A stretch of 64,000 bases of DNA from Harmothoe impar (taxonomy: Eukaryota > Annelida > Polychaeta > Phyllodocida > Polynoidae). The stretch is taken from assembly GCA_947462335.1 (NCBI GenBank), contig OX381709.1, positions 36,784,186 through 36,848,185 of the forward strand, written 5' to 3'. The translations under genes and the position numbers were made by a program. Each line of letters opens with the position of its first letter. Position 1 is the first letter of the stretch. The notes beneath the pieces were generated by a model. That model was given only the letters and a program-made list of their open reading frames with translations. It ran no database searches and was not told where the DNA came from. Shown piece by piece: positions 1,240 to 63,135 of the stretch.

Positions 1240-1312
1240 CTCGTGGCGCTGGGGATTAGCCGCTCGCTTATGGCGTGCGCGAACCGGGTTCGAGTCCCGG
1301 ACGAATTTCATA
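1240..1312 (+). repeat. tRNA-like remnant (probable SINE head)
   Basis: The sequence contains a good B-box-like T arm, CCGGGTTCGAGTCCCGG at about 1284-1300, preceded by GGGGATTAGCCGCTCGC, which resembles an A box. The anticodon arm is not clean and there is no complete cloverleaf. A tRNA-derived SINE fragment is more likely than a functional tRNA gene. Confidence 0.4.
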
Positions 1313-5964: not shown

Positions 5965-6311
5965 ACCCATATAAACCCAGGGCGGGGGGGCGTGGCATCG
6001 AACCGCTGGAGGTAGTTCCTCCAGCCCTCCTGGGGGGCGCCAGCGGCGCCCTAGGAGTTCCAGCGGCCGCCGGGAGGTGGCGCCCCGGAGTGACGTCATC
6101 CCCAGGCGTGACGTCACCAGCCGCGACGTCGCTTAGCGACTGTTCTATCTGTTGTACGGGGACTAGAAAAGGGCACATCCTTTGAACGGTGGTCAGTCGG
6201 CCGGTCAATCTCCTTGTGTACACATCTCCCGCAGAATTTTCAAATTTCTCCCGAGGCTTTTCCCGAGGTTTACTTGAGTTACCAAGCTACCGAGGGCGTC
6301 TAGAAGTTACA
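5965..6311 (+). promoter_or_regulatory. GC-rich leader with tandem CREs (retrotransposon promoter)
   Basis: This GC-rich stretch contrasts sharply with its AT-rich surroundings and lies just 5' of the Gag-like ORF. It holds two perfect TGACGTCA octamers (6091-6098 and 6109-6116, spaced 18 bp) and a related GCGACGTCGC at about 6122. Perfect CRE octamers are known CREB/ATF sites. I infer an internal promoter or terminal region of the retrotransposon. The exact 5' end of the element was not found. Confidence 0.5.
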
Positions 6312-7190
6312 ATGGGTCGTGTCAAGAAAACTCCCAAGAAGTCGGGCCGGCCGGCCGAGGCTGAAGAAGATGTGGGCGGGGCAGCCCAAACGAGGGATCT
6401 TCTCGAGAGGACGAGGGCAGCTGTCGCAGAATCCGAGGGCCGATTGGCGAGGGTGGAAGGAGGTTTCACCCGGTTGGTGTCGATGGTGGAGAAGGTCCAG
6501 GAGTCGGTAGAGAAGAGTCTCGAGGGCGGCAGGGTTCCCGAGGGCTCGACCAGTCGCCAGAGCAGGCCCAGGAGGAGGCGTCAAGAAACTCCACCAAGGT
6601 CTGAGAGGGACTCATCTGACGACTCGAGGGCTTCGCCAAGACCCGAGGGCGCTCGTCGCAAGAGATCCAGAACAAGATCCAAGTCTAGTAAGCATTCAGA
6701 ATTTGCCCAGAAAAATTTTCTCGAGAGGGGGGTCAGAATTGATTCCCTCGAGGCCCTGTTGCTTGTAAATGTCAGAACCGTTCTAATCATGTTGAAACAA
6801 GGTATTGATGTTGAGGGATTGTTAGCTCACATGGAACTCATTTGTGAGAAAGCCCTGACCAAAGTATACAGGGTCAGTTCCCTGATCTCATATGACAAAT
6901 CTGTAAGGGGTAGGGCGGATGAGGGAGGCCCGGAAGTTTTTGGGCAGGTATCAAACAGTGACGTGTTAAGGTACTTCTCATATGATAGCACTATCATTTC
7001 TTCCAAGGGGGGAAAGAGTACTATAGTTACCTCATCCAGGGGAGCTGAAAAGAGACCCTGTTTCAGCTACAATAAGGCCCAGGGATGCGACTTCCAGGGG
7101 TGCAAGTATCAACATGTGTGTATGTTTTGTCGTAGCTCATCCCATGGCTCAGCAGCATGTAACATGTCTAACCCTAAAGCTGATAAGTAG
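6312..7190 (+). CDS. gag: Gag-like ORF1 of DIRS/Ngaro-like retrotransposon
   Basis: I start at the ATG at 6312 (context ACAATGG), giving 292 aa; an in-frame extension upstream lacks an ATG. Residues of roughly 25-85 are Glu/Arg-rich and heptad-like, suggesting a coiled coil. About 85-140 is an Arg/Ser-rich basic tract. The C terminus carries two Cys/His motifs in tandem: C-x8-C-x4-C-x3-H (CCCH type), then C-x2-C-x4-H-x4-C, the spacing of a retroviral zinc knuckle. It probably packages element RNA as a nucleocapsid-like protein. The ORF ends in TAG. The same frame stays open for about 50 more codons before the RT frame takes over. It is intact within this copy, though the element is truncated 3'. 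Confidence 0.7.
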   Translation: MGRVKKTPKKSGRPAEAEEDVGGAAQTRDLLERTRAAVAESEGRLARVEGGFTRLVSMVEKVQESVEKSLEGGRVPEGSTSRQSRPRRRRQETPPRSERDSSDDSRASPRPEGARRKRSRTRSKSSKHSEFAQKNFLERGVRIDSLEALLLVNVRTVLIMLKQGIDVEGLLAHMELICEKALTKVYRVSSLISYDKSVRGRADEGGPEVFGQVSNSDVLRYFSYDSTIISSKGGKSTIVTSSRGAEKRPCFSYNKAQGCDFQGCKYQHVCMFCRSSSHGSAACNMSNPKADK

Positions 7191-7317
7191 GGTAATAAGG
7201 GTAGGCCTAGTCTGGAAGGTGTCGTATGTAGTTCCAGCGAGGCTATTACCCATGATTTGTATGGCTATGACAACCCTTCCTTCTCTCTTAACCCTAATTG
7301 TCAGGAATTTGTCCCTA

Positions 7318-7326
7318 GGGGGGGGG
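7318..7326 (+). other. G9 run at the Gag/RT frame junction
   Basis: The Gag reading frame, continued past its stop, encodes a segment with an N-P-N-C-x-EF-x-P motif up to this run of nine G. The RT frame is open from this run onward, a -1 shift. The run is either a slippery site or a length mutation that separated the frames. Confidence 0.4.
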
Positions 7327-7369
7327 AAGGGTTATTCAATCGTCCAGCCAGCTAGAGGTATCAGACACC

Positions 7370-9058
7370 ATGTATAAAGTATGCCCTGTTTCACTTTTGA
7401 ATCCTATGTGTGAGGAGTTCATTCCAGGGAAGAGTTGGAACACTGGTGAGGTTTCTCACCCGCGTGGTAGCTTAGCATTGAACCCTATGGCAGTGTCGAG
7501 GCTGGATCCAACCTGTCCACCCTTCACGCTGGGGGTAGTAGCACATGAATGTGGAGTTGCCAGTTTAAATCAGGCGACTGAGTTTTCACCCAGGGGAAGG
7601 GTTCTTCTATTTACCATTGATGGTAGCCGTGATATAGGGGATGTTAGAGTCTTTAGTGATTGCTTAACTGGTACTTGTGACTGTACATATTATATTGGCT
7701 CTGAAATTACTCACTTAAAACCCTGTAGGTTCGCTGCCTTTATCTCAGGCAGCGGTAATGTTTTTCCTGGTAAACCCTTAGATGCTGAATACATCTGGGA
7801 GGGGGTTAATAGGGGTTTTAAAATTGTTGATGAAAATTGTGACACGGAGTACTCCTGTAGCAACTATAAAACTATTTTGGAACCGCAATTTTATTCTGAA
7901 ATGTGTGATATAATCCGTCAGGAAGTGGCAGATGGGTATGTAACAAAGGTTACCCACCCTCCTAGGTGTGTTCATGCTATGGGGGGGGTTGAAAAATCAA
8001 ATGGTAAGCTTAGACCCATCACTGACTGCTCCATGCCGGCTGGTAAGGCGATAAATAACTTTATGTATACTACATATGAGCCTTTTTCCTATAATTCAGT
8101 TTACACAGTAGTGGACCAGTTGGATCAAGGCATGTTTATGTCAGTGGTGGATTTGAGGTCCGCCTATAGGTCGGTAGGGGTATGTGCCCCACATGCTGAG
8201 TACCAGGGGTTCGCTTGGGATTTGGGTAAGGGTAGAGAATACTATATAAACAACAGGTTGAGCTTTGGTCTCAGGTGCGCTCCTAATATTTTTAATGCCC
8301 TATCTAATTTCATTGTTAAGGTTGCAAAATCTTATGGGGTAGAGAAGGTGGTTAACTACCTTGACGATTTCATTGTATTGGCGAGGTCAGAGGCCGAGTG
8401 TTTGCGCCAGAGGAATGTATTAATTGAAGTAATGGAGTTTCTGGGTTTTGGTATATCCTACGGCAAGGTTACCACCCCCAGTCAAAGGACTGTGTTCTTA
8501 GGTATCACTATTGACTCTGCGGCTATGGAGCTCTCCCTACCCCCGGAAAAAATTGTTAAATTAAAGGAAGCCCTCGACGAATGCTTAGGTATGCAATATG
8601 TACATAAGAAAAGGTTGCAAAAAATAGGTGGGTTAATGTCCTTCTGCTCTCAGGTTGTAAGGGGAGGTAGGACCTTTAGCCGCAGGTTATACGATCTATG
8701 TGCTAAGGCAAAAACAGGTAGAGCTATTTTCCTTTCTCAGGCTACTAAAGACGATCTACTATGGTGGAGGCAGTTTTGTGATGTTTTCAATTGTCGTGCC
8801 CTGTTCAGGAGAGAGCTGGTGGACCTACCCATGGTATCAGACGCATCTAAGAGGGGTTTCGGCGCCTGGATGGGATCTGATTATTTTTACGGTTGTTGGG
8901 AAGGCTTTGGGGTTAGGGATATTAGTCCGCTGCATGAGGAGGCTGCCCCAGAGATGGACGGTATTCGGGTACATAGAGGTAACATTAATGTATATGAACT
9001 ACGTCAAAATAATGTTATAAAATTTCATTTAACGTTATGCAATAGTAAGGAGCCTTAG
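7370..9058 (+). CDS. pol: Reverse transcriptase plus truncated RNase H (DIRS/Ngaro-like)
   Basis: This 562-codon ORF carries RT landmarks in order. There is a first catalytic Asp in SVVDLRSAY (about residue 260), SFGLRCAPNIFN (about 300-310) typical of Ngaro/DIRS RTs, and the YLDD box at about residue 330 in NYLDDFIVLA. A thumb with FLGITID follows. RNase H begins with VSDASKRGFGAW (first Asp) and reaches the Glu motif NVYEL. There the sequence passes abruptly into a fold-back element at about 9000, so the last 15-20 residues are foreign. The remaining RNase H and any tyrosine recombinase are missing. The first ATG at 7370 may not be the true start because the frame is open back to about 7319. 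The absence of nonsense mutations suggests a fairly young copy. Confidence 0.8.
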   Translation: MYKVCPVSLLNPMCEEFIPGKSWNTGEVSHPRGSLALNPMAVSRLDPTCPPFTLGVVAHECGVASLNQATEFSPRGRVLLFTIDGSRDIGDVRVFSDCLTGTCDCTYYIGSEITHLKPCRFAAFISGSGNVFPGKPLDAEYIWEGVNRGFKIVDENCDTEYSCSNYKTILEPQFYSEMCDIIRQEVADGYVTKVTHPPRCVHAMGGVEKSNGKLRPITDCSMPAGKAINNFMYTTYEPFSYNSVYTVVDQLDQGMFMSVVDLRSAYRSVGVCAPHAEYQGFAWDLGKGREYYINNRLSFGLRCAPNIFNALSNFIVKVAKSYGVEKVVNYLDDFIVLARSEAECLRQRNVLIEVMEFLGFGISYGKVTTPSQRTVFLGITIDSAAMELSLPPEKIVKLKEALDECLGMQYVHKKRLQKIGGLMSFCSQVVRGGRTFSRRLYDLCAKAKTGRAIFLSQATKDDLLWWRQFCDVFNCRALFRRELVDLPMVSDASKRGFGAWMGSDYFYGCWEGFGVRDISPLHEEAAPEMDGIRVHRGNINVYELRQNNVIKFHLTLCNSKEP

Positions 9059-40285: not shown

Positions 40286-40505
40286 TGTAGAGGTCGCGGA
40301 AAACTTAGTCATTGGATTGGCCGGGAATCGAACCACAGACCTCTCTCCCCGGTGACAAGCGTGCTAACCGTTACACTACCAACCCGTGTCTGACTGTTCT
40401 CCGCTCCCTACGTTACTGGATCGGTATGGTACAGAGGGATAGGATTACCCAGGTGTTTCACCCCTTCGGGCTCTCCACCAGGGTACAGGGAATCCTAACT
40501 CTACA
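40286..40505 (-). mobile_element. Solo LTR of a TRIM-like element carrying a tRNA-like gene
   Basis: A 220-bp block starts TGTAGAGGTCGCGG and ends ACTCTACA, i.e. TG...CA with short inverted ends. TTAG is duplicated at both flanks (40282-40285 and 40506-40509). Two segments match the LTR at 58933: GGTCGCGGAAAA near the start and TACGTTACTGGxTCGGT about 100 bases on. Between them lies a different tRNA-like module. No second LTR is nearby, so it is a solo LTR, presumably left by LTR-LTR recombination. The minus strand is the tRNA-sense orientation. Confidence 0.8.
40313..40385 (-). tRNA. tRNA-like gene inside solo LTR (Asp GTC-like)
   Basis: The 73-nt minus-strand sequence has a 7-bp acceptor stem (GGGTTGG against CCAATCC, one G-T), discriminator A, an A-box-like GTGTAACGGTTAGCAC and a B box GGTTCGATTCC. 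TGTCACC in the anticodon region resembles tRNA-Asp(GUC). A T4 run follows 9-10 nt after the 3' end. The T stem has mismatches, so a working decoder tRNA is unlikely. Confidence 0.45.
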
Positions 40506-58786: not shown

Positions 58787-58956
58787 TGTATCCCATCTTC
58801 TGAATATTAGTGTGCATTTCAAGAAATGGAAAGTGCTTATTCATTGAATTCACCAATGCCTTTTTACTGGAAAAAATGTGTAACCATTGTTGTATTTTCA
58901 CAGACTTAATACATAATAATCATATATCATATTGTAACGGTCGCGGAAAAATCGTC

Positions 58957-59029
58957 TGGAGAAAGCGGGACTCGAACCCACGACCCCCTGACTCCGGAGC
59001 CAAGTGCTCTACCACTGAGCTACTTCCCC
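58957..59029 (-). tRNA. tRNA-like gene in LTR (CCG loop, Arg-like), copy 1
   Basis: 73 nt: acceptor GGGGAAG pairs fully with TTTCTCC (two G-T), discriminator A. The A box is TAGCTCAGTGGTAGAGC, the T arm GTGGG-TTCGAGT-CCCGC, the B box GGTTCGAGTCC. The anticodon loop contains CTCCGGAG. Best stem pairing (CTTGG with TCAGG) leaves an 8-nt loop, so decoding is doubtful; CCG would be Arg. T5 follows six bases after the 3' end, a Pol III terminator. Its 3' end plus CCA matches the element's own primer-binding site. Confidence 0.7.
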
Positions 59030-59319
59030 TTCTGACAATCTAACAGCGCCGTACGTTACTGGGTCGGTTCGGTAACCACTGCCCTTACACAGCTCCCCCA
59101 GCCTCTATCATGCCCCGTAGCAGCCAATGATAGAAGCTCACAGTGCCGAACCGATCCAGCCGATTTGTTGACTTGACTCCATGCTGAACTCCAACTGCCC
59201 GTACTGGGAACCAACTCTTCACTACCTGCTCCTCCAACTACCAACCGCCAGCAGGTGGCCAATCCCCAGCAAGTTGGGATGCTCCAACCGTCTAAGTCAA
59301 CCGTACCAGCGAGTGCGCT

Positions 59320-59333
59320 CGCTTTCTCCACCA
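59320..59333 (-). other. Primer-binding site complementary to the LTR's own tRNA
   Basis: The plus strand reads CGCTTTCTCCACCA, equal to the last 11 bases of the LTR tRNA-like sequence (CGCTTTCTCCA) plus CCA. One base (G, 59334) separates it from the LTR. In element sense it is TGGTGGAGAAAGCG. Confidence 0.8.
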
Positions 59334-59358
59334 GTGTAACGGTCGCGGAAAAATCGTC

Positions 59359-59431
59359 TGGAGAAAGCGGGACTCGAACCCACGACCCCCTGACTCCGGA
59401 GCCAAGTGCTCTACCACTGAGCTACTTCCCC
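59359..59431 (-). tRNA. tRNA-like gene in LTR (CCG loop, Arg-like), copy 2
   Basis: Identical to the copy at 58957-59029, in the other LTR. In minus-strand sense this is the 5' LTR copy. Confidence 0.7.
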
Positions 59432-59499
59432 TTCTGACAATCTAACAGCGCCGTACGTTACTGGGTCGGTTCGGTAACCACTGCCCTTACAATATCAAA

Positions 59500-61348: not shown

Positions 61349-62323
61349 CTATAAAGTGGCAAATAGTGTAGACAGGTTGTTGGCTACACGCTGAGAGGGG
61401 AGTGATGCCACGTATGGTTTAAGACCTGACACAGTGGTCCAGGTACCGTGCTTGGCGATGTCTTTGGTATTAGAGCCAGATGAAGTAGCTGCCTGGCAAC
61501 CACCTCTCCTTAATGAGTGACCTGAGAAAGAAGCCGCATAGGGGACCTTGAGAGTGGTCAGCACATGCCTGACCACAGTAGTGAGGTTCCCCGGGGTGAC
61601 AGGTCTACCATCAGGTAGTATAAAGGCTGGAGAGGAGTTGTAGGCCGGTACCAGGTTAACATAATTGTCCCAAGCTTTGGCTGGGCATGCAGGTGAGTTG
61701 GGTATACGAGGTAGTGAGAGAACTGCAGGGCGAGTTCCTCTCTTGATAGTTTTTGATGACTTGATCACTATAGTGAGGCCTGCAGTAGTAGAAGTTATAT
61801 CACCCCTTGTTAATGTGTGAGGTCCTTGCCATAGAGTAGCAGTCGGGGTGAGTAAGTTAGAAGCACGTAAGAATGCGAAGAAACCTACACATAATGCAGC
61901 TACCAGGGGTACAGCCTGTGTTACACCTTGTAAATACTGACACACTCTGACTAAGTCCTGGGGGGTCAGTGGAGGAGCTGGTGCAGCCATGTGTGGTTTA
62001 AGGTTTATGGCCCCTTTTGCTACTGCTAGGGTCTCAGGGGCGAGGAAGGCTGATGTGTCACCACCTCTAGCTTCTATCCACATTCTCGCGCCGGAGGTGT
62101 AGTTGCGGCGAGAGGCAGGGGAAGTGAGTGAATTGGCCAAAAACTGTTGGTATAGCGCTGAGTCCTGAATCGAGGGGGACAGTATATCTACTGAGTAATA
62201 TATAGCAAAGGTCAAGTAATACCTTGCCTGTCTTAGTCTGTTTATTGCTGTGTCTTCCGACACAGGCGCCTTGTAAGACTGTAGTGCTTGCTGTCCTAGG
62301 GGGCAATCTGCAATACAAATCAT
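61349..62323 (-). CDS. Tyrosine recombinase of DIRS-order retrotransposon
   Basis: This 324-aa ORF has the tyrosine recombinase catalytic set in order: Arg153 (GFFAFLRASNLL), His269-x-x-Arg272 (SFSGHSLRRGG), Trp295 at the H/W position (KHGTW), and nucleophile candidate Tyr304 (GLKPYV). The N-terminal 110 residues are the helical SAM-like core-binding part (SPASRRNYTSGARMW). It would integrate a circular cDNA without target duplication, as known for DIRS elements. Its ATG overlaps the stop of the upstream ORF as ATGA. No disabling mutation is visible. A TTGCAG just inside the ORF could instead be a splice acceptor. Confidence 0.8.
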   Translation of the reverse strand: MICIADCPLGQQALQSYKAPVSEDTAINRLRQARYYLTFAIYYSVDILSPSIQDSALYQQFLANSLTSPASRRNYTSGARMWIEARGGDTSAFLAPETLAVAKGAINLKPHMAAPAPPLTPQDLVRVCQYLQGVTQAVPLVAALCVGFFAFLRASNLLTPTATLWQGPHTLTRGDITSTTAGLTIVIKSSKTIKRGTRPAVLSLPRIPNSPACPAKAWDNYVNLVPAYNSSPAFILPDGRPVTPGNLTTVVRHVLTTLKVPYAASFSGHSLRRGGCQAATSSGSNTKDIAKHGTWTTVSGLKPYVASLPSQRVANNLSTLFATL

Positions 62324-63120
62324 ATAGGATCAAATACCGGTAGTGGGTCAGATGGCTCGACTCTCTGGAGACCCCTGCTCTTGACCAAAGTCTGAGCAAG
62401 TAGGGCTTTGGCTTTGTCGTGCTGGCGACTTAAGGCGTCGGCGAGAGGCAGGTCTTTCCCGTACCTATGTCTAACTGTGATGACGTGGTCCTTGTTGGCT
62501 GCGTCAAGCCATAACTGGCGAGAACAGGCTGCCAGTATGGCGTCAGTGGTGCGTCCAGTTGACAGAGCCTGGCTTGAAGCCATATTGTCTGTGTATACTA
62601 CAATGTTGAGACCTTTGGACATGGGAGGAGACAGAGTCCTGTAGGCTATGACCAAGTTCACAGCTTCCCTATGTACAATGAGAGGAAACTTCTCCTTCTG
62701 AGCTGGAGTGTACTCCAGAGAGTAGTAGTGTGAATGAGAGTTTCCCCCTCCTGAGAGTAGTGTAGAGTCACATTCAATCTCGGATTCTTGTACCGGGTAG
62801 CTGAGGAAGTGGAGGCCATTGGTGGTCTTAGCATAATTGAGAAACCACTTCACATCAAGTAGGAAGCCGTTGGTGAGGAAGGCTGGAGCCACTGGGGGGG
62901 CTTTCCTCAGGGTTTCAAGAATGCGGCACACAAAGCGACGGGCTGCTGGGATGCACTTGGAGATATGGATGACCTTTCCTACGAGTGATTGGATCTTGGC
63001 CTTATGGGCGAACCTGGTGTTGGCCCAGAGAGAGCATTCTCTTTGTACCTCTTGAAGCTTGGGTGCAGGCACCTTAAGTGTCATGTCTAGTGTATTGAAC
63101 TCAAATCCCAGCCATTCCAT
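62320..63120 (-). CDS. RNase H domain ORF of DIRS-order element
   Basis: It begins MEWLGFEFN, the LGF/FLG-type thumb motif after the RT palm, so the ORF is really the second half of the pol reading frame. A connector with helices (QSLVGKVIHISK) follows. RNase H residues are then seen in order: Asp in IECDSTLLSGGG, Glu in HREAVNLVIA, Asp in VVYTDNMAS, Asp in LADALSRQ. It is in the same frame as the upstream RT ORF, separated only by one TAG codon. It overlaps the recombinase ORF by 4 nt. Confidence 0.8.
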   Translation of the reverse strand: MEWLGFEFNTLDMTLKVPAPKLQEVQRECSLWANTRFAHKAKIQSLVGKVIHISKCIPAARRFVCRILETLRKAPPVAPAFLTNGFLLDVKWFLNYAKTTNGLHFLSYPVQESEIECDSTLLSGGGNSHSHYYSLEYTPAQKEKFPLIVHREAVNLVIAYRTLSPPMSKGLNIVVYTDNMASSQALSTGRTTDAILAACSRQLWLDAANKDHVITVRHRYGKDLPLADALSRQHDKAKALLAQTLVKSRGLQRVEPSDPLPVFDPI

Positions 63121-63135
63121 CTTCTGTGATGGGGG

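Follow-up and report, generated by a model that had tools for sequence, protein, structure and literature searches.

A 64,000-nucleotide stretch of the genome of the polychaete Harmothoe impar (GenBank assembly GCA_947462335.1, contig OX381709.1, positions 36,784,186 to 36,848,185 of the forward strand; hereafter the window) contains a short retrotransposon with long terminal repeats (LTRs), each of which carries a tRNA gene. The element belongs to a high-copy family of terminal-repeat retrotransposons in miniature (TRIMs) of the Helenus type, and its primer-binding site (PBS) pairs over 14 nt with the 3' end of its own LTR tRNA plus CCA, compared with 9 nt for the host tRNA-Ala. We consider it likely that a tRNA made from the LTR primes reverse transcription of the element. 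An earlier sequence-only reading of the window had proposed that an LTR-made, CCA-tailed tRNA serves as the primer, and this proposal gained support from the 14-nt matches, from their recurrence in three sequence versions and from a set of inverted copies. Complementarity, covariation and inverted copies, which support self-priming, were observed in the DNA sequence, as were the anatomy, the copies, the three tRNA-PBS pairs and the differences at the host tRNA-Ala end; priming itself we infer, because the analysis covers DNA sequence alone.

The element in the window and its LTR tRNA

The two LTRs of the element are 157 bp each, 100% identical and bounded by TG...CA, and they enclose an internal region (Table 1). 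Judged by its length, this 245-bp region is too small for retrotransposon protein genes. The features of a TRIM were all found: a length below about 1 kb, two LTRs, a PBS, a polypurine tract (recognised by position only) and a non-coding sequence. The sequence-only reading had described the identical TG...CA LTRs, the ATAT duplication, a tRNA in each LTR and the 14-base PBS, and every detail held. Runs of four or more T occurred in the element only at the T5 site, once per LTR, and a pattern scan detected neither TATA(A/T) nor A(A/T)TAAA in the LTRs or the internal region.

Two RNA structures were predicted at the borders of the internal region. The border with the 3' LTR (59055-59164, minus strand) folds with -51.8 kcal/mol (z -4.3, 0/200 shuffles), and an inverted match between U3 and the internal region surrounds the polypurine tract. 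At the other border (59319-59358, minus strand), the U5 terminator region UUUUUCCGC is pairable with the PBS over 9 bp (z -1.75, 10/200 shuffles), a pairing that resembles the retroviral U5-PBS stem.

Table 1. Positions of the element, its parts and the second Helenus-type LTR in the window
Feature	Positions	Strand	Basis or remark
Whole element	58933..59491	-	559 bp
5' LTR, 157 bp	59335..59491	-	letter-for-letter same as 58933-59089
3' LTR, 157 bp	58933..59089	-	same sequence as 5' LTR
Target-site duplication ATAT, left	58929..58932	.	sequence
Target-site duplication ATAT, right	59492..59495	.	sequence
Internal region, 245 bp	59090..59334	-	sequence
Polypurine tract GGGGGAG, then CTG, then 3' LTR	59093..59099	-	placed by position only
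PBS TGGTGGAGAAAGCG, 1 nt off the LTR	59320..59333	-	complements LTR tRNA+CCA, 14 nt
tRNA gene in 5' LTR, 73 nt	59359..59431	-	Rfam RF00005 53.9 bits; ARAGORN; 21/21 cloverleaf pairs standard
tRNA gene in 3' LTR, same sequence	58957..59029	-	Infernal; ARAGORN
A box TAGCTCAGTGG	59414..59424	-	pattern scan
B box GGTTCGAGTCC	59370..59380	-	pattern scan
T5, terminator of RNA polymerase III (Pol III) type, 5 nt past the tRNA	59349..59353	-	pattern scan
Solo LTR of second Helenus-type family (B), 220 bp, TTAG flanks	40286..40505	-	sequence comparison
tRNA-like gene of the family-B LTR	40313..40385	-	Rfam 38.6 bits; presumably Gly-like by a tRNA panel

Infernal, one of the checks proposed in the sequence-only reading, detected one full-length tRNA per LTR at 53.9 bits against a gathering score of 29, and ARAGORN found the same two tRNAs with an odd anticodon loop, 'ccgg'. 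All 21 cloverleaf pairs were standard, 5 of them being G-U, and the A box, B box, paired arms and T5 that had been read from the letters were located where expected. Within the element only the tRNA attained an Rfam gathering score, and no 5S rRNA sequence was found in the LTRs. The anticodon loop of the LTR tRNA has 8 nt and can be closed to a CCGG tetraloop, indicating a non-decoding loop and a tRNA that is unlikely to decode. In comparison with host genes, the 5' half of the tRNA in family A, the family of the window element, was near host tRNA-Ala. The nearest type in a tRNA panel was Ala for family A and Gly for family B; host genes then took the place of the panel for Ala, not for Gly.

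The PBS TGGTGGAGAAAGCG is the reverse complement of the last 11 nt of the LTR tRNA plus CCA, 14 nt in total, and lies one base (C) from the LTR. Of 2,000,000 random 5' ends drawn with equal base composition, 1 attained a match of 14 nt (6 offsets), and the expected chance of a 14-nt match given TGG is about 5e-7. A chance match in one copy is vanishingly improbable on these figures, and it was refuted by the repetition of the match in three sequence versions across families A/D, C and B. Separately, the idea of a likeness between the PBS region and the tRNA extending past the 14 nt was discarded, since 1060 of the 2000 shuffles did as well.

tRNA-PBS pairs across families and host tRNA genes

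The host genome (1.51 Gb, 736 contigs) was searched for further copies. Family A has at least 40 full or nearly full-length copies with 99-100% identity, the window copy included; this count is a lower bound, 40 having been scored among 1781 first-look candidates. Among 14 fetched copies the 4-bp target duplications were perfect in 10 and imperfect in 4. As the copies are near-identical and mostly have perfect duplications, family A looks recent. The Helenus-type families in the genome are A, B, C and D, plus a group F (loci are given below as L numbers).

The families differ in their tRNA ends, and their PBSs differ accordingly. Families A, A' (L202) and D (L201) have the tRNA end CGCTTTCTCCA and the PBS TGGTGGAGAAAGCG, and the sequence downstream of the PBS in family D is unlike that of A. 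Family C, whose first copy (L200) was a more distant element from the family A search, has the tRNA end CGGTGTCTCCA and the PBS TGGTGGAGACACCG; L200 matches over 14 nt with a mismatch at the 15th, as in A. Family B copies with a PBS have the tRNA end CGGCCGATCCA, one base off that of the solo LTR in the window, and the PBS TGGTGGATCGGCCG. Three different tRNA 3' ends pair with three different PBSs, and the covariation across copies that the sequence-only reading had suggested examining was found in the versions A/D, C and B.

We then compared individual junctions. Loci were chosen by whole-element similarity for A, by PBS for C and by tRNA end for D. The results showed that 33 of 40 LTR-PBS junctions from these families match their own tRNA plus CCA over exactly 14 nt; among the other seven, three match over 12 nt, one over 17 nt, and three run on. 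This parse omits L221-L223, which are larger views of L215, L206 and L209; the regular expression behind it also failed to pick up L230 and L233, whose B box is changed, as well as L224, L251 and L255. Cross-matches of tRNA end and PBS between A and C reach 9 nt, versus 14 nt for own pairs. The pattern ACACTGGTGGAGABNNCG, which excludes family A, had 44 matches genome-wide, and TGGTGGAGACACCG was present in 41 of them. The C tRNA end was read in nine of these 41 (L200, L227-L234): six match over 14 nt, L228 matches over 12, and L230 and L233 were unparsed. Of the three remaining matches (L224-L226), L224 is an inverted copy, and L225 and L226 show no tRNA. The host-Ala version of the PBS was found in none of the 44 matches, though the pattern allowed it.

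Family B was represented by 17 matches, and the pairing is 14/14 in L272, L274 and L276. Comparing own with other pairs within B was uninformative because the B tRNA ends are nearly alike. An expectation that B copies with the PBS TGGTGGATCTGCCG would carry the tRNA end CGGCAGATCCA failed on the fetched copies.

Two further groups of loci were observed. At L247-L249 (G000:C2:105955000-105956570), three family-D LTR tRNAs stand 689 bp apart, in what looks like a tandem LTR-internal-LTR-internal-LTR array. Group F (L204, L205, L207, L208, L211, L212, L214, L218, L257), located through its 3' end CGCTTTCTCCA, which is shared with A/D, has diverged LTRs and a different tRNA body.

Host tRNA genes were assessed as candidate primers. 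A pattern for the host tRNA-Ala 3' end gave 120 matches, and among the 100 listed, 99 end in CGGCATCTCCA, the remaining one (L270) being a C-like LTR; CCCGG and CTCCA were fixed in this pattern and T after CCCGG was excluded, so that A- or C-type ends could not be listed. Five matches read fully (L265-L269) were free-standing tRNA-Ala genes without LTR sequence. The host tRNA-Ala end plus CCA fits the PBS over 9 nt in A and C and over 7 nt in B. Host tRNA-Ala-like genes also form a large tandem cluster at G000:C18:26840345-26896624, where two genes that were read have TGC and CGC anticodons.

Where the next base was A, C or T, the A/D tRNA end had 47 matches in the genome. All 39 that were fetched were LTR-linked; the test was loose, accepting a leader, a TTTTC in the trailer or an inverted junction, and was partly backed by eye. 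The other eight are some 690 bp away from D LTRs that were fetched, the position expected of partner LTRs. These counts bear on the possibility that priming is done by some undetected host tRNA sharing this 3' end; the LTR tRNA would then descend from its gene, and the match would reflect common descent only. Such a gene could escape a search that covered just the A/D ends before A, C or T; however, three such genes would be needed for the three tRNA ends, the matches that were found are LTR-linked or placed like partner LTRs, and tRNA-Ala, the closest in the 5' half, has a different end. We regard an unseen host primer as improbable. The sequence-only reading had itself named two findings that would undo its proposal. 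A PBS fitting a host tRNA and not the LTR tRNA was absent among the parsed junctions, with host tRNA-Ala as the sole comparison. A host gene with the identical end was absent from the 39 fetched of 47 matches, while G-followed, C-type and B-type ends lay outside this search.

The pairs were also weighed against an ancient capture, in which reverse transcription long ago copied the LTR tRNA from the primer tRNA of the element, and the LTR tRNA now acts as a Pol III promoter only, as proposed for other Helenus elements, while a host tRNA primes today. The intact A and B boxes, the 9-nt fit of host tRNA-Ala to the A and C PBSs, the PBSs of 8 to ~15 nt reported for other TRIMs (PMC4558846, PMC3532108) and the persistence of imperfect copies (L239, part of B) are in line with this explanation. 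However, the PBSs track the LTR tRNA where it differs from host tRNA-Ala, and they do so differently in A and C. Separate old captures should moreover have drifted apart, yet 33 of 40 junctions are exactly 14 nt, with the reservation that members of one family do not count as independent. An ancient capture with present-day host priming is therefore unlikely to explain the data.

Inverted copies and a proposed course of priming

At L203, L206/L222, L209/L223, L215/L221, L224 and L256/L264, LTR-C-TGG is followed by the reverse complement of an LTR tRNA in place of the internal region. The tRNA copy in L209/L223 is 22 nt long and stands at the U5 end of a 3' LTR; it is longer in the other inverted loci, and in L224 just 16 nt of the LTR end are left. 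In L221, the inverted part consists of the tRNA, the leader and U3 up to the U3 start, and CTAC occurs on either side, indicating that the inverted molecule predates integration. In L264, an LTR nearest D (82%) is fused to a tRNA and U3 nearest group F (L214, 96%), and the sequence continues through leader, U3, polypurine tract and internal region, the latter two being 81-85% like A elements. No target duplication was seen at the L264 locus.

In the simplest reading, the inverted copies would be plus-strand DNA that was copied on into an LTR-derived primer RNA with leader and U3, and that primer RNA would be the 3' end of genomic RNA. They lend support to self-priming but fall short of proof, because a jump of the PBS copy onto the LTR tRNA, or recombination in L264, gives the same letters. 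Another origin, which concerns the inverted copies only and does not compete with self-priming, is that the end of plus-strand strong-stop DNA annealed to LTR tRNA sequence and was extended. In favour of this, the inverted copy in L221 extends precisely to the start of U3, the point from which plus-strand strong-stop synthesis would set out. Against this, the copy in L264 comprises tRNA, U3, polypurine tract and internal region from another family and reaches past the U3 start. An intramolecular snap-back cannot produce it, although a jump between molecules or a later recombination could. L223 has a 3' LTR whose U5 end retains a 22-nt tRNA copy. A strong-stop origin of the inverted copies is quite possible, though not probable.

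If the LTR tRNA is the primer, Pol III would transcribe it from the A and B boxes and end at T5. Processing of the tRNA 3' end and CCA addition would give the primer end. This end could belong to a free tRNA or to a genomic RNA terminating at the tRNA of its 3' LTR; the inverted copies point to the latter form at least sometimes. The last 14 nt would then pair with the PBS, either in the same RNA or in a related one, and an autonomous LTR element would supply reverse transcriptase and integrase; judging from other animal Helenus, this is probably a Gypsy element. Finally, the primer 3' end may be copied into the plus strand in the retroviral manner. In human and simian immunodeficiency viruses (HIV/SIV), the primer 3' end is reported to be copied into the proviral PBS, so that the PBS may reveal the primer used (PMC4549124). 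Such copying would keep the PBS and the LTR tRNA matched and would account for the covariation. As a tentative extension, the genomic RNA might end at the 3' LTR tRNA, be trimmed and CCA-tailed like a pre-tRNA and prime its own or a sister RNA with this end; one LTR gene could then serve as promoter, RNA 3' end and primer, and a whole group of Helenus families would not depend on host tRNAs for priming.

Several findings weigh against self-priming. Kojima (2024) reported no complementarity between LTR tRNA and PBS in the Helenus families studied and concluded from this that the LTR tRNA plays no part in starting reverse transcription (PMC10886601). T5 sits in the 5' LTR ahead of the PBS, where a genomic RNA made by Pol III has to read through it, and the unconstrained minimum-energy fold of the LTR tRNA is not a cloverleaf. 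A snap-back or jump of plus-strand DNA, for which complementarity suffices, could yield the inverted copies. Imperfect pairs occur in family B at 13/14 (L273, L275, L277, L279), 12/14 (L278) and 11/14 (L271); L273, L275, L277 and L278 share a PBS base unmatched by their tRNA, and 8 of the 17 B matches have no usable pair (L283-L287, with no PBS and runs of 4-5; L280-L282). L239 has a tRNA change in both LTRs with the PBS unchanged, L228 shows a similar mismatch (run of 12), L255, an old copy, matches over 11 nt by eye, and the PBS of L251 is mutated. The host-gene search has the scope given above. Copies within a family are near-identical and not independent, so that the weight rests on the three distinct pairs (A/D, C, B) as the independent evidence.

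The PBS misfits in L239, L228 and part of B are consistent with trans priming by related copies, and together with the joining of families in L264 they suggest that primers are probably also shared in trans between related copies. The sequence-only reading had suggested that primer and PBS co-evolve in cis. The match per family agrees with this, but strict cis pairing does not survive L239, L228, part of B and L264.

Relation to known elements and other features of the window

Helenus elements are TRIMs with tRNA-derived LTR sequence, described from fungi, animals and one plant (Kojima 2024, PMC10886601). Like these, the window element is a short LTR element with a tRNA-derived sequence bearing A and B boxes in both LTRs, a PBS and a polypurine tract, and, as in animal Helenus, 4-bp duplications and several families per genome were found. 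By its anatomy it is a Helenus element, an assignment made from the published description and not from homology to a named Repbase family. The PBSs of bivalve Helenus were assigned to tRNA-Lys, His, Ile, Pro, Glu or Ser (PMC10886601); unlike in the reported elements, the PBS here fits the LTR's own tRNA over 14 nt in A, C, D and B. The sequence-only reading knew of no described animal element with this arrangement. That does not hold for the kind of element, which had already been described as Helenus (PMC10886601), whereas the primer link is new relative to the published statement and is supported by the three tRNA-PBS versions. Among the open-licence PubMed Central papers listed by our literature searches, none further described a primer tRNA encoded in an LTR.

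In the textbook view, LTR elements rely on host tRNA primers. A group of families that encode their primer would, if confirmed, alter this rule of host-tRNA dependence and overturn the published negative conclusion on Helenus, and it could account for the fully paired tRNA kept in the A-family LTR. Because a single element carries both primer and PBS, and the PBS should receive a copy of the primer, these families would offer a natural system for primer-PBS co-evolution, and the primer question is opened to direct testing by sequencing of tRNA and complementary DNA. A practical caution is that tRNA gene finders will label such LTRs as tRNA genes, as ARAGORN did.

Cassandra and Ajax are non-coding elements with 5S rRNA sequence in the LTR that are thought to be mobilised in trans, and the Ajax PBS fits tRNA-Leu (PMC10886601). 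The window element resembles them in having a non-coding, Pol III gene-derived LTR and differs in that theirs derives from 5S rRNA and the present one from tRNA. Since they carry 5S rRNA and not tRNA, a CCA-tailed primer end is not expected there. Tf1-type LTR elements self-prime with the 5' end of their own mRNA and not with a tRNA with CCA; the proposed primer here would likewise come from the element's own RNA, but as a tRNA with CCA. Among animal TRIMs, biv-TRIM, PbTRIM and ta-TRIM share the small non-coding internal region (PMC6934838, PMC3532108, PMC4558846). ATAT duplications are reported as frequent in PbTRIM, the PBSs of PbTRIM and ta-TRIM fit tRNA-Leu (PMC3532108, PMC4558846), and no canonical PBS was identified in the description of biv-TRIM (PMC6934838).

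In a 202-kb genome sample, no relative was detected by blastn, and one tRNA was found (ARAGORN 21 loci, Rfam 14/21). Pattern searches of viral and prokaryote collections gave no relative, one pattern being without a match, and the 178 loci among the matches listed had just 19-22 nt stretches in common with the LTRs.

The family-B solo LTR in the window shares U3 and U5 blocks with A (0/2000 shuffles each) and has a different tRNA. Reverse-transcriptase element open reading frames (ORFs) were found at 6186-9058 (plus strand), with Pfam RVT_1 in 7319-9055, and this element is possibly DIRS-like. At 61349-63135 (minus strand), two neighbouring ORFs without a Pfam match resemble by eye a DIRS-type reverse transcriptase/RNase H end and a tyrosine recombinase. 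A tRNA-like stretch with a B box at 1240-1302 (plus strand) is perhaps the head of a short interspersed nuclear element (SINE).
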